DNA of 24,627 nucleotides from IMG/VR virus record IMGVR_UViG_3300027861_000186, positions 1 to 24,627 of that record. One strand, 5' to 3'. The notes below the pieces were generated by a model, which saw only the letters and a program-made list of their open reading frames with translations, did not search any database and was not told where the DNA came from. Below, piece by piece: positions 1,423 to 24,627 of the stretch; position 1 is the stretch's first letter; every line of letters starts with the position of its first letter. The translations under genes were made by a program, and so were the position numbers. This DNA is from a virus.

Positions 1423-3708
1423 TTAACTCTCACTTAAATTTAATGTTCTACCAACTTCTTGCCATACAGCACCACTGTATCTGAATACTAATATGTCTGT
1501 CTTACCATCTGTTGAAGTAAATGTTGGTGCAGTTGATGCTGCAAATTCAAAGATGGTATTAAAAGCAATAGTGTGTGAACCATTGTAATTAATTTCTAAA
1601 GCTATAAATGCACCTTCGACATTGTTAGTTGGTGCAGAAAAAGTTGTATTTTCTGTTGTTATATGAACTGCGTTTGGTTTAGCAGAAGCATCCCAAGCTA
1701 CAGCGTTTGATGATGATGTTAATGCTTGTTGTGTAACATTAGCAGCAGCACCAAAAGTAGATAAACCACTTACATCACAAGTTCCATTTATATCAATCGC
1801 TGTTGCAGTTAAATCTATTTCACTTCCACCAGCAATACTTAATACAGAACCATTACCGCTGATATGTTCTCCACCAGCATCATTAAGATATATTTTACCT
1901 GTACTCGCAACTAATAAATTTGTACCATCAAAAGTTAAATTTGCTTCTCCAATAAGAGCATTAGCACCTGTAACTGTTGCAACAGTATTATTTGTTGATC
2001 CAGATAAACTTGTTCCTGAACCATCAGCACCAGAGTATTCAAAATGTACTCCAACACCATCTGTATTTGAGAATGTTCCACTTGAAACTACATGAGTTAC
2101 TGGAACTTTAGTATAACCAGTGGCATCAGTTACAGCTCCTGTTACTTTGAATGTTGCATAAGTTGATGCTGTTCCTTCTTTAGTAATAGTTACAATACCT
2201 CTTGCAACTGCATTAGATACATCATCCCAAGATTGAACATAAGATGTTATATCTGCTGAAGCATCATCCGCATCATCTACATATAAAATTGTTGCACTTG
2301 CTATTGTGCCATGATTCCAAGCAATTTTACCTGCACCTGGATCGGCATCAGTTGTTGCACTACTCCAAGTCATAGAAAGTTGTGAGTTAGTACCCGAAGC
2401 TCCAGTAGCACCAGTTGATCCAGTTGATCCTGTAGACCCTGTATCTCCTGTTGTACCTTTGTCTCCAGCTCTAACAAAAGTTATAGATAGTTCGTCAGTA
2501 GCACTAAAAGTATTATTACTTGCTAGATGAGCAACTGTAATTTTATTGTAGCCACTCGCATCTGTAACCGCAGCAGTAATTTTAAATCTTGCATAAGTTG
2601 AGCTATCGTTAATATCAACTATATGTAATGAACCTTTAATTGTAGAAGTTGATCCACCCCATGATTGAACATCTGTAGCTGTACTAGCACCATTAGAATC
2701 AGCATCATTTATATAGATTGCTGTAGCTGAAGCATAAGTACCATTATTAAATTTTACTTCTCCAGCACCCGGATCACTATCTGCTGTATTAGTATCAAAC
2801 TTATAAAAATATCCCGGTATAGCACCATCTTCTCCAGAAGATGTAAATGCAATAAATACTTTATCATCATCAGCAAAACTACCAGCACTATCAATGTAAA
2901 CTAAAGTTATTTTAGAATAACCAGTAGCATCTGTGATTGCACCACTAACTTTAAATACCATCCAAGTATCTAATGTATTTGCTTTTGATATTCTTATTCT
3001 ACCTCTATTGGTATCATTACCAGTTACATCATCCCATGATTGTACCCATGCTGTTACATCTGTACCATTGTATTCTAAATCATCTATGTACATTTCAGTT
3101 GCACTAGATATTGTTGCGTGGTTTAATCTAAATTTTCCTGCTCCGGGATCTGCATCTGTTGTTGTTGTTGAATATTGGAACATTGCACTATCTCCACCTG
3201 CCGGTAGAAAATCTGCAACTGTTGTTAATACATTTCCTGTACTGTCAAATCCTAAAGTTTTAGATGCTCTTGTTGCAGCATCCTCTGTAAATTCTGGTGT
3301 TGTAATTGAGTTGGTTCTTGAAACTTTAAACGATCTATCTAATTCCTCTTGCATCTGCTGAATAGTCATAGTTGCACGATCCAAACCCTCTTCATGAGAT
3401 TCCGCAGGGAATGGATCATTAGCGATATAATCTATCGCTTGAGTTTGCGGAACACCTCTTCTAATAACAACTGTTTCACCAGTTGCAGGAGTATTCCCAG
3501 ATGTAAATGTAACATTACCACCTGACGCATCTCCAGCACCAGATACTGTGTAGTGCGTGGTTAGAGTTTTGGTTGTTTCAGTTCCTGTAGAGGATCTGAT
3601 AATTACTTGTAAATCTGTGTCTGCAAATATTTTAAATGTGTAGGCAAATTCAGTTGTACTGTCATTACCCGAATACGAATTTTTTACTGTTGTGCTTGAT
3701 ACTGTCAT
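1423..3708 (-). CDS. Tail fibre protein with T7-type N-terminal anchor, triple repeat and collagen-like segment
   Basis: A 761-residue protein. Residues 1-130 match the T7 tail-fibre N-terminal domain that docks on the tail: FAYTFKIFADTDLQVI near 21-36, VVIRRGVPQTQ near 80-90, FPAESHEEGLDRATM near 100-114 and a helix QQMQEELDRSFKV near 117-129. Then come three copies of a roughly 115-residue beta-rich module (about 176-293, 300-415 and 445-562), each opening with D(A/S)DPGAG and containing the line V(Q)SW and TDA(T/S)GY. Between copies 2 and 3 lie about nine Gly-X-Y triplets (about 415-441, GST repeats), a collagen-like trimeric stalk. The C-terminal region (about 575-761) is rich in Gly, Ala, Ser and Thr, with NLTFDGTNLLV and FRYSGAVWQEVG, typical of the distal fibre. 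An AAAGG motif precedes the ATG. It is the first gene after the internal virion proteins, the same place as T7 gene 17. Confidence 0.88.
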   Translation of the reverse strand: MTVSSTTVKNSYSGNDSTTEFAYTFKIFADTDLQVIIRSSTGTETTKTLTTHYTVSGAGDASGGNVTFTSGNTPATGETVVIRRGVPQTQAIDYIANDPFPAESHEEGLDRATMTIQQMQEELDRSFKVSRTNSITTPEFTEDAATRASKTLGFDSTGNVLTTVADFLPAGGDSAMFQYSTTTTDADPGAGKFRLNHATISSATEMYIDDLEYNGTDVTAWVQSWDDVTGNDTNRGRIRISKANTLDTWMVFKVSGAITDATGYSKITLVYIDSAGSFADDDKVFIAFTSSGEDGAIPGYFYKFDTNTADSDPGAGEVKFNNGTYASATAIYINDADSNGASTATDVQSWGGSTSTIKGSLHIVDINDSSTYARFKITAAVTDASGYNKITVAHLASNNTFSATDELSITFVRAGDKGTTGDTGSTGSTGSTGATGASGTNSQLSMTWSSATTDADPGAGKIAWNHGTIASATILYVDDADDASADITSYVQSWDDVSNAVARGIVTITKEGTASTYATFKVTGAVTDATGYTKVPVTHVVSSGTFSNTDGVGVHFEYSGADGSGTSLSGSTNNTVATVTGANALIGEANLTFDGTNLLVASTGKIYLNDAGGEHISGNGSVLSIAGGSEIDLTATAIDINGTCDVSGLSTFGAAANVTQQALTSSSNAVAWDASAKPNAVHITTENTTFSAPTNNVEGAFIALEINYNGSHTIAFNTIFEFAASTAPTFTSTDGKTDILVFRYSGAVWQEVGRTLNLSES
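2023..3183 (-). repeat. Three diverged protein repeats plus collagen-like linker in the tail fibre gene
   Basis: Copies at about 2830-3183, 2464-2811 and 2023-2376 encode related modules. Each has DxDPGAG, then N(H/N)(A/G)T(I/Y)xSAT, (Y/I)(I/V)(D/N)DA or DDL, VQSW, a TFK or RFK/VFK strand, TDA(T/S)GY and a final F strand. The Gly-X-Y stretch is encoded at 2386-2466 and contains short 9-bp tandem repeats (for example near 2411-2430), which could change copy number by slippage. Confidence 0.8.
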
Positions 3709-23848: not shown

Positions 23849-23870
23849 TTTATGAATAAACAACTAAACA

Positions 23871-23888
23871 AAAGGGAAAAATAAAATG
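23871..23888 (+). repeat. Leader cassette copy 2 (uninterrupted long form)
   Basis: Identical 18-base cassette, here preceded directly by AATAAACAACTAAAC. This is the form without the 33-bp hairpin element and serves as a comparison for copy 3. Confidence 0.85.
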
Positions 23889-24086
23889 AAAACTTATAGA
23901 GTGTGTCCAACATTAGATATATTTAAAGATGTAAAAGCTAAAAACGAAGAAGATGCTAAAAATAAAGTACAAAATGAAATTGATAATTTAATTAATTGGA
24001 AAAAAATTATGAATAAAAATTATCAAGAACTTAATTGTGATCATACATTTATTACTGATGAATGGTATAATTTTAATGATAAATAA
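23886..24086 (+). CDS. Small protein of unknown function (leader cassette gene 2)
   Basis: A 66-residue protein: MKTYRVCPTLDIFKDVKAKNEEDAKNKVQNEI has a strand, a second strand with a DVKA.NEEDAK line and a helix. This is the layout of small proteins that read V.A.s.EEA...v, often found in phages. Then follow LINWKKIMNKNYQELNCD and a last strand TFITDEWYNF. Two cysteines are far apart. The AAAGGG ribosome-binding site is in the 18-base cassette. Function unknown. It is followed by the leader that carries the 33-bp hairpin repeat. Confidence 0.7.
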   Translation: MKTYRVCPTLDIFKDVKAKNEEDAKNKVQNEIDNLINWKKIMNKNYQELNCDHTFITDEWYNFNDK

Positions 24087-24144
24087 ACAACTGAAGAATA
24101 CTTCTTGCTTCGACAGAAGTAAGCTACAACAAAGGGAAAAATAA
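24076..24144 (+). other. Mini reading frame through hairpin repeat copy 1
   Basis: ATG at 24076 opens a 22-codon frame through the repeat to TAA at 24142-24144, one base before the lipoprotein ATG. Its middle encodes NTSCFDRSKLQ, the same peptide that copy 2 encodes inside the gene starting at 24475. There is no ribosome-binding site. It could be a leader peptide reached by reinitiation, a decayed duplicate of that gene start, or just a side effect of the duplicated DNA. Confidence 0.3.
24097..24129 (+). repeat. 33-bp hairpin repeat, copy 1 (in a leader)
   Basis: Identical over 33 bp to 24502-24534. CTTGCTTC (24104-24111) and GAAGTAAG (24116-24123) form an 8-bp stem with loop GACA. One pair is G-U on the plus strand and would be C-A in minus RNA, so the RNA of this operon is the likely active form. 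No U-run follows, so it is not a terminator. It seems inserted within the leader that precedes the lipoprotein gene, by comparison with leader copy 2. Confidence 0.85.
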
Positions 24145-24148
24145 AATG
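24131..24148 (+). repeat. Leader cassette copy 3
   Basis: Identical 18-base cassette directly before the lipoprotein gene. It follows the 33-bp hairpin repeat with two bases between. Confidence 0.85.
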
Positions 24149-24265
24149 ATTAACTTAATTAAATTATTGCTTGTATGTTTATTGTTAAGCGGTTGTTCTG
24201 TTTATAAAAATAATAAATTACAAAAACAAATTTATGAAAAACAGCAATCATGGTTAAATATATAA
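24146..24265 (+). CDS. Small lipoprotein (39 residues)
   Basis: ATG at 24146-24148 lies in leader cassette copy 3 with a good AAAGGG ribosome-binding site. Stop TAA is at 24263-24265. The product starts MINLIKLLLVCLLLSGCSVY: a Lys-containing n-region, a hydrophobic core and a lipobox LSGC with the lipid-modified Cys at residue 17. The mature part is only 23 residues, Lys/Gln-rich. It should be an inner-face outer-membrane or inner-membrane lipoprotein. Phages use such proteins as outer spanin subunits (for example the T7 and lambda Rz1 types) or as receptor-blocking superinfection-exclusion proteins (for example T5 Llp). Its placement among early-type genes, without a visible inner spanin next to it, leaves both open. 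Confidence 0.78.
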   Translation: MINLIKLLLVCLLLSGCSVYKNNKLQKQIYEKQQSWLNI

Positions 24266-24282
24266 TTAAAAAAAACAAACAG

Positions 24283-24300
24283 AAAGGGAAAAATAAAATG
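24283..24300 (+). repeat. Leader cassette copy 4
   Basis: Identical 18-base cassette whose ATG (24298-24300) starts the zinc-ribbon gene. The longer reading frame from 24250 only translates this leader in frame. Confidence 0.85.
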
Positions 24301-24474
24301 ACACAAGAAAAAAAAATATACTACTCTGATTTAGCAAACTATGTTGATGTTTGTTATAGCTGTAAAAGTCAAAATATATCAATACATGACATAGAAATTG
24401 ATAATCAAAAAAATTATTGTTTAGATTGTCATAGTGAAGATGTTGGAGCAGTACCACCAGAAGATGTTATATAA
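24298..24474 (+). CDS. Zinc-ribbon-type small protein
   Basis: A 58-residue protein with two CxxC knuckles, CYSC at residues 19-22 and CLDC at 41-44, separated by 18 residues. This is the classic spacing of a zinc ribbon. The N-terminus (MTQEKKIYYSDLANYV) is charged, and the C-terminal tail is acidic (EDVGAVPPEDV). Phage zinc ribbons often bind RNA polymerase, nucleic acid or other proteins, so a transcription or host-takeover regulator is possible, but no specific family is recognised. The start is fixed by the AAAGGG cassette at 24283. The next gene starts immediately after the stop. Confidence 0.77.
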   Translation: MTQEKKIYYSDLANYVDVCYSCKSQNISIHDIEIDNQKNYCLDCHSEDVGAVPPEDVI

Positions 24475-24627
24475 ATGACAACTAAACAATTAACACAGCA
24501 AAATACTTCTTGCTTCGACAGAAGTAAGCTACAAAAACAAAATTTAAGAGAAAATGTTAAGGAATTATTTAACACTCTTAAAGAACAAAATGGTCTAGCT
24601 TGGAAAGAAATAGTTAGAAATTATAAA
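24475..24627 (+). CDS. Protein of unknown function, 3' end outside window
   Basis: The frame opens with ATG at 24475-24477, directly after the previous stop, and stays open for 51 codons to the window end. Its first part is coded by the 33-bp hairpin repeat (NTSCFDRSKLQ near residues 10-20). After that comes a charged helical stretch, LRENVKELFNTLKEQNG then LAWKEIVRNYK, that looks like genuine folded protein. No clear ribosome-binding site is seen; coupling to the zinc-ribbon gene is likely. The hairpin about 35 bases into the message might affect translation. Function cannot be judged from this fragment. Confidence 0.66.
   Translation, partial: MTTKQLTQQNTSCFDRSKLQKQNLRENVKELFNTLKEQNGLAWKEIVRNYK
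24502..24534 (+). repeat. 33-bp hairpin repeat, copy 2 (within a coding sequence)
   Basis: Exact match of 24097-24129, 405 bases downstream, with the stem at 24509-24516 and 24521-24528. Here it is read in frame as the early part of the gene starting at 24475. The upstream bases ACAACTAAACAA (24478-24489) also match the leader before 23886. Confidence 0.85.

Follow-up and report, generated by a model that had tools for sequence, protein, structure and literature searches.

The repeat and its boundaries

What is a 33-bp hairpin doing twice, without a single difference, among the early genes of an ocean phage? The window, which is the whole 24,627-base IMG/VR virus record analysed here, belongs to an HTVC010P/Skadi-like pelagiphage, a phage of the ocean alphaproteobacterium SAR11. 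Its nearest annotated relatives are the Skadi isolates, which match parts of the window at about 90% identity, followed by HTVC203P, HTVC010P and others. The repeat is located past the terminase, among the rightward early genes. An earlier note on this DNA had recorded identical 33-mers at 24097–24129 and 24502–24534, and both are present exactly. With as many as three mismatches allowed, the 20-nt hairpin core is matched twice in the window, and 100 shuffles gave no match. The stem–loop described in that note, CTTGCTTC-GACA-GAAGTAAG, has a folding energy of -9.1 kcal/mol (z = -3.5), which no shuffled sequence out of 200 equalled.

The exact 33-mers are real, but their boundaries are not those of the biological unit, which starts six bases further left and runs from CTGAAG to GTAAG; the CTACAA common to the right side of both 33-mers is flank and falls outside it. 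Copy 1 (CTGAAGAATACTTCTTGCTTCGACAGAAGTAAG) thus occupies 24091–24123 and copy 2 (CAGCAAAATACTTCTTGCTTCGACAGAAGTAAG; covariance model score 44.7 bits, E 1.7e-7) occupies 24496–24528, both on the plus strand. Copy 2 differs from copy 1 by three changes within the first six bases, and the main stem is intact.

Copy 1 had been taken as mostly noncoding. It in fact lies in frame within a mini-ORF, MINKQ-LKNTSCFDRSK-LQQREK* (MINKQLKNTSCFDRSKLQQREK*; 24076–24144, plus strand), which overlaps the end of the gene upstream with its start and terminates a single base ahead of the next start codon. Copy 2 is in phase inside a small early gene that begins MTTKQLTQ-QNTSCFDRSK-LQKQNLREN... and runs off the window (24475–24627, plus strand). 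Both window copies of the 33-mer read the same 11 codons. Relatives commonly have homologues of the small gene that lack the element.

The comparison with an uninterrupted leader was well chosen. The leader at 23852–23888 on the plus strand (23853–23888 in the earlier note), with its mini-ORF MNKQLNKREK*, is an empty counterpart of the copy-1 leader, and near-exact empty leaders occur in L005 (near position 3000) and in L130–L132. Pelagiphage early-gene leaders share ATGAATAAACAACT...AAAGGGAAAAATAAAATG (window 23852–23888 and 24076–24144; L005 near 3000 and 3213). They often hold mini-ORFs of the MNKQLNKREK* type that end beside the following start codon, and resemble collapsed small-gene ends.

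Copies in other pelagiphages

Pattern scans, a covariance model and a screen of indels together brought the count to 18 copies, which occupy about ten sites and come from 17 pelagiphage records. The exact 20-mer, scanned against 2.9 million viral contigs, was present in four from pelagiphages and in a pair unrelated to them; the 20-mer matches in L001/L003 lie inside an unrelated gene and were set aside as chance. Looser patterns added L135, L225, L227, L247, L029, L062 and L234, then L287 and L294, and then L325 and L326. Most of the looser-pattern matches, together with L324 (Clostridiales), L328 and L329, were judged by their context to be chance. The covariance model, applied to 100 pelagiphage sources (1.04 Mb), recovered those copies at E < 2e-5, several of them belonging to its training set and so not independent. 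A diverged copy in L153 scored 19 bits (E 0.19) and was confirmed by the empty sites of L174, L205 and L255, which are 33 bp shorter. In the indel screen among relatives, which is unbiased and covered 338 short indels, the element inserts were among the best-folding. When about 1 Mb was scanned with a generic 8-bp-stem pattern, the known copies were recovered with 4-nt loops, together with one doubtful match; a shuffled set gave one match.

Outside this group the searches were negative. The strict pattern gave one chance match and no genuine copy in 84,980 bacterial and archaeal genomes, no copy was found in isolate phages (10 isolate genomes being searched with the covariance model) and a search of Rfam with the element gave no match.

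The element is found in both orientations. It occurs in frame close to either end of one small early gene; other copies are in leaders, in the space separating divergent genes and behind an annealing-protein gene. Identical copies occupy different sites (L135 and L247 share one form; the window, L002, L005 and L006 another). Each record has two copies at most, so that there is no clear amplification. The earlier note had proposed looking for further copies and for covariation in the stem, and would have taken the lack of both as a sign of a one-off recent duplication. Both were found, namely copies at unrelated sites and compensating stem changes.

Empty sites and target

Joining the 12-base flanks of each copy and searching for them in relatives revealed an empty counterpart for eight sites. 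The insert is exactly 33 bp long, or 26 and 32 bp in two variants. The 26-bp insert of L287/L294, which lies behind the annealing-protein gene and opposite to transcription, occupies a site (TGGTTATATCAA^CTACTGTTGATT, with ^ the insertion point) that is empty in the isolates HTVC024P and Greip, with 24 of 24 flanking bases identical. The same score was obtained for the L247 site (TAATATTTTAAA^CAAATAGAAAGG), empty in L173, while one mismatch (23/24) separates the L062 site from its empty form in L184. The L225 site (AGAAACTATAAA^CAAAAACAAG), near the C-terminus of the small gene, is empty in L192 (23/24). Empty forms are also seen for L005 (AAACAA^CTAACACAAAAA) in L138, for L135 and L002 (CTACAA^CAACAAAATTTA) in L203 and for L153 (CTCAA^GTAGTAACGATAA), where the element is reversed, in L174. 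L227 has a loose empty counterpart only, and L325/L326 have none among the relatives searched.

There is no target duplication at any site beyond one ambiguous base. Insertion occurred at AA^C at six of the seven main-subfamily sites, compared with a background of 2.0%; the nominal probability of 4e-10 is overstated, since the element itself begins with C and some of the flanks are related.

Other short inserts were seen in these phages. L247 carries, at about 271–306 on the minus strand, a different 36-bp in-frame insert in the same small gene, with a small hairpin of its own (TTCCATAAAGACAAATGGAA); L225 and L192 lack this insert, whose flanking TTAGC repeat resembles a target duplication. 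In L250 (HTVC203P; about 2992) an insert of 42 bp containing a long hairpin is located near the end of a putative transcriptional regulator gene; relatives are without it, and its length is again a multiple of three. Near the terminase region of L252/L182 (about 630–670) a TCCCTTA...CAGCTAGATCGCTGGACTCCCTTA unit forms a 32-bp indel among relatives.

Hairpin structure and reading frame

The unit consists of two tandem hairpins, laid out as CT, GAAG-NNNN-CTTC, 7-bp stem-NNNN-7-bp stem and G; in copy 1 a GAAG-AATA-CTTC hairpin is followed by a 7–8-bp stem with the loop GACA. In an alignment of eight variants the 8-bp main stem is paired in 64 of 64 cells (100%), compared with at most 61% when it is slid. 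Two main-stem pairs have changed on both sides, both in the diverged L153 copy, and as they come from one lineage they provide support for the stem rather than proof. The loops are GACA, GCAA or GTAA. The tandem pair is the best fold in the window variant and in L153, and most other variants prefer an alternative 6–10-bp stem. An alternative pairing, TACTTCTTRY with GYAAGAAGTA, was rejected, with 85–91% of cells paired compared with 100% for the main stem. A hairpin in a leader of L337, from the record of L133 (about 1192–1212), has the same stem layout with two compensatory changes (CTCGTTTC-GTAA-GAAATGAG, then CAAATG) and no clean empty site; it may represent a third subfamily.

The G-U pair, which was said to work only in plus-strand RNA, does so in the window variant. 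One such pair, at a varying position, is present in each full-length main-subfamily variant except the GCAA-loop form of L325, but the preference for a strand is not conserved: by folding energy the plus strand is better for the window variant and the minus strand for L135. A strand-specific RNA was set aside on this inconsistency, and a role in plus-strand RNA is therefore not established. A transcription terminator was also rejected, there being no T-run.

The element has a single open phase, CTG AAG AAT ..., which adds 11 codons and reads LKNTS[CY]F[DAV]RSK. This phase is used in all seven of the translated forward contexts tabulated, and the reversed L153 copy reads through as SLRKKREEFFS. 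In the L029/L062 and L287/L294 variants the frame is not kept. Residues encoded by the element vary (C/Y and D/A/V) while the stem stays. CAA is itself a codon, so target choice and selection are inseparable in the reading-frame data.

A two-gene cassette between the copies

The two window copies, whose starts are 405 bp apart, flank a 405-bp two-gene cassette that is missing from the near-identical L006. The inter-copy stretch (24124–24495, plus strand) holds a 39-aa ORF with a lipoprotein-like signal (MINLIKLLLVCLLLSGCSVYKNN...; 24146–24265, plus strand), for which all PHROG matches are weak (E at least 0.019), and a 58-aa ORF with two CxxC pairs (24298–24474, plus strand). In L006 a single element has the left flank of copy 1 on one side and the right flank of copy 2 on the other; the left side of this comparison is short, because L006 ends only 21 bases beyond the element. 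Judged from these sequences, the presence and absence of the cassette is what recombination between the copies would produce. In L151 the upstream gene is joined directly to an element-free small gene, and in Skadi-5 a homologue of the CxxC gene lies directly upstream of an element-free small gene. Given these three arrangements, the window is best read as a mosaic, with a two-gene cassette between two copies of the element. The suggestion of a recent duplication of a gene start is true in small part, in that the two window copies are related by recombination; it is not the whole account.

Nature of the element

We consider that the repeat is probably a miniature mobile element of pelagiphages, palindromic and 33 bp long. 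The earlier proposal of a small mobile or amplifying element gains support from the copies at unrelated sites, the clean empty sites in relatives and the compensating stem changes. The direction, gain and not loss, is read from relatives without the element and not from rooted trees.

Several of the sites share leader-like flanks, and leader-to-leader recombination could therefore have moved some copies. Taken as the sole process, this would make the unit a linker carried by homologous recombination between similar AC-rich early-gene leaders, a seam of cassette exchange that never transposes. Many copies do sit in leaders of the AAACAA...CAAA type, and the window and L006 differ by exactly such an exchange. 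However, the flanks at L287/L294 (TATATCAA^CTACTGTTG), L029/L062 (AATTAAATTA^CATTAG) and L153 (CTCAA^GTAGTA) share only the target bases with leaders and the insertions are clean. Recombination alone appears already strained by these three unrelated sites, and we regard it as improbable. Somewhat less probable still is a functional RNA or DNA site, whether a processing hairpin, translational regulator or operator, that was selected and spread for its benefit. Such a role would suit a stem preserved in all variants with loops GACA, GCAA and GTAA, the copy in a divergent promoter region of L029/L062 and the closeness of copies to gene starts. It sits poorly with the L225 and L153 copies, which are inside coding sequence near the C-terminus, with the lack of the element at every site in most close relatives and with the empty Rfam search; the occurrence of both orientations relative to genes and the absence of a consistent strand preference by folding energy argue mildly against a transcript-specific role.

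That every translated copy is in phase, with seven contexts giving LKNTS[CY]F[DAV]RSK, might suggest instead that NTSCFDRSKLQ is an 11-residue protein motif conserved in one gene and duplicated recently with the gene start. The motif is, however, absent from most homologues of that gene, and its residues change where the stem is kept; the intergenic and reverse copies elsewhere and those with a broken frame in L029/L062 and L287/L294 rule this reading out for practical purposes. Short hairpin inserts of similar size inside genes also recall mobile inserts that the ribosome skips by translational bypass, such as the byps of yeast mitochondria and the gap in T4 gene 60. Here the insert has an open reading phase with no stop, the preceding codons (CAA, CAG and AAA) differ between copies with no consistent landing codon, and matching take-off and landing codons were not found around it; we give bypass almost no credence.

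As a mobile element, the unit would enter an AA^C target in the form of a single strand bearing the hairpin. We liken this to single-strand transposition because there is no duplication, the target preference is one-sided and the hairpin is conserved. A single-strand (HUH-type) transposase acting in trans might be responsible; a search for the Y1 transposase (PF01797) gave no match in 26 phage records, most of them fragments. Alternatively, the single strand might anneal during replication through the phage's own nuclease/annealing-protein recombination, a possible route since these phages carry nuclease and single-strand-annealing genes. We view the two routes as about equally likely. Insertions that break a frame would be removed by selection and, where two copies are present, recombination between them would gain or delete the intervening genes.

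More tentatively, and with less than even confidence, we propose that this is phage-borne 33-bp mobile DNA with its own target choice, without target duplication and compatible with coding, which is spreading in streamlined lytic SAR11 phages and providing seams for the exchange of early-gene cassettes. Even a stripped-down lytic virus would then appear to carry its own miniature mobile element, and the rapid turnover of early genes in pelagiphages would have a concrete seam. These are abundant marine phages and the isolates HTVC024P and Greip carry an empty site; as the hosts are culturable, insertion, excision and effects on the gene are directly testable.

Comparison with known systems

Within a partial coverage of the literature, we found no description of a comparable element from a pelagiphage. 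Miniature elements derived from IS200/IS605 make no target duplication, use a short fixed target on one side and carry a subterminal hairpin. The pelagiphage element is like them in all three respects, with AA^C at six of seven sites and no duplication beyond one ambiguous base; unlike them it is far smaller, and no transposase was found in the 26 records.

The PeSL cassettes of T4-like phages (Arbiol 2010; Comeau 2014), described as promoter-plus-terminator units in a paper that cites them (PMC4503421), are likewise phage stem-loops between small early genes and tied to cassette shuffling. In contrast to that description, the pelagiphage element inserts inside genes, no copy has a T-run after the stem and no promoter hexamer pair can be read within the 33 bp.

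The element resembles both REPs and Rickettsia palindromic elements and fits the definition of neither. REPs fall into GTAG and CGTC superfamilies, and RAYT transposases are presumed to move the former (PMC3733652). As small mobile DNA with an imperfect hairpin of 20–40 bp the pelagiphage element is similar, but its copies start with CTGAAG and end with GTAAG or GAGAG and have no terminal GTAG or CGTC tag. It is also not high-copy, is frequently intragenic and is accompanied by no RAYT (Y1) gene in the 26 records, mostly fragments. Rickettsia palindromic elements (Ogata et al.) are about 105–150 bp long and dispersed in many copies through the Rickettsia chromosome, both between genes and in frame within them, with one open phase (PMC10969869, PMC2229807). 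By comparison of descriptions, the element differs in being 33 bp long, in numbering one or two copies per record and in residing in phages, with no host-genome copy by the strict pattern. Protein-compatible palindromic elements were already known from bacterial chromosomes such as those of Rickettsia. The likeness lies in a palindromic, mobile-looking unit, in an alphaproteobacterial setting, that occupies intergenic DNA and also protein genes, where it is in frame.
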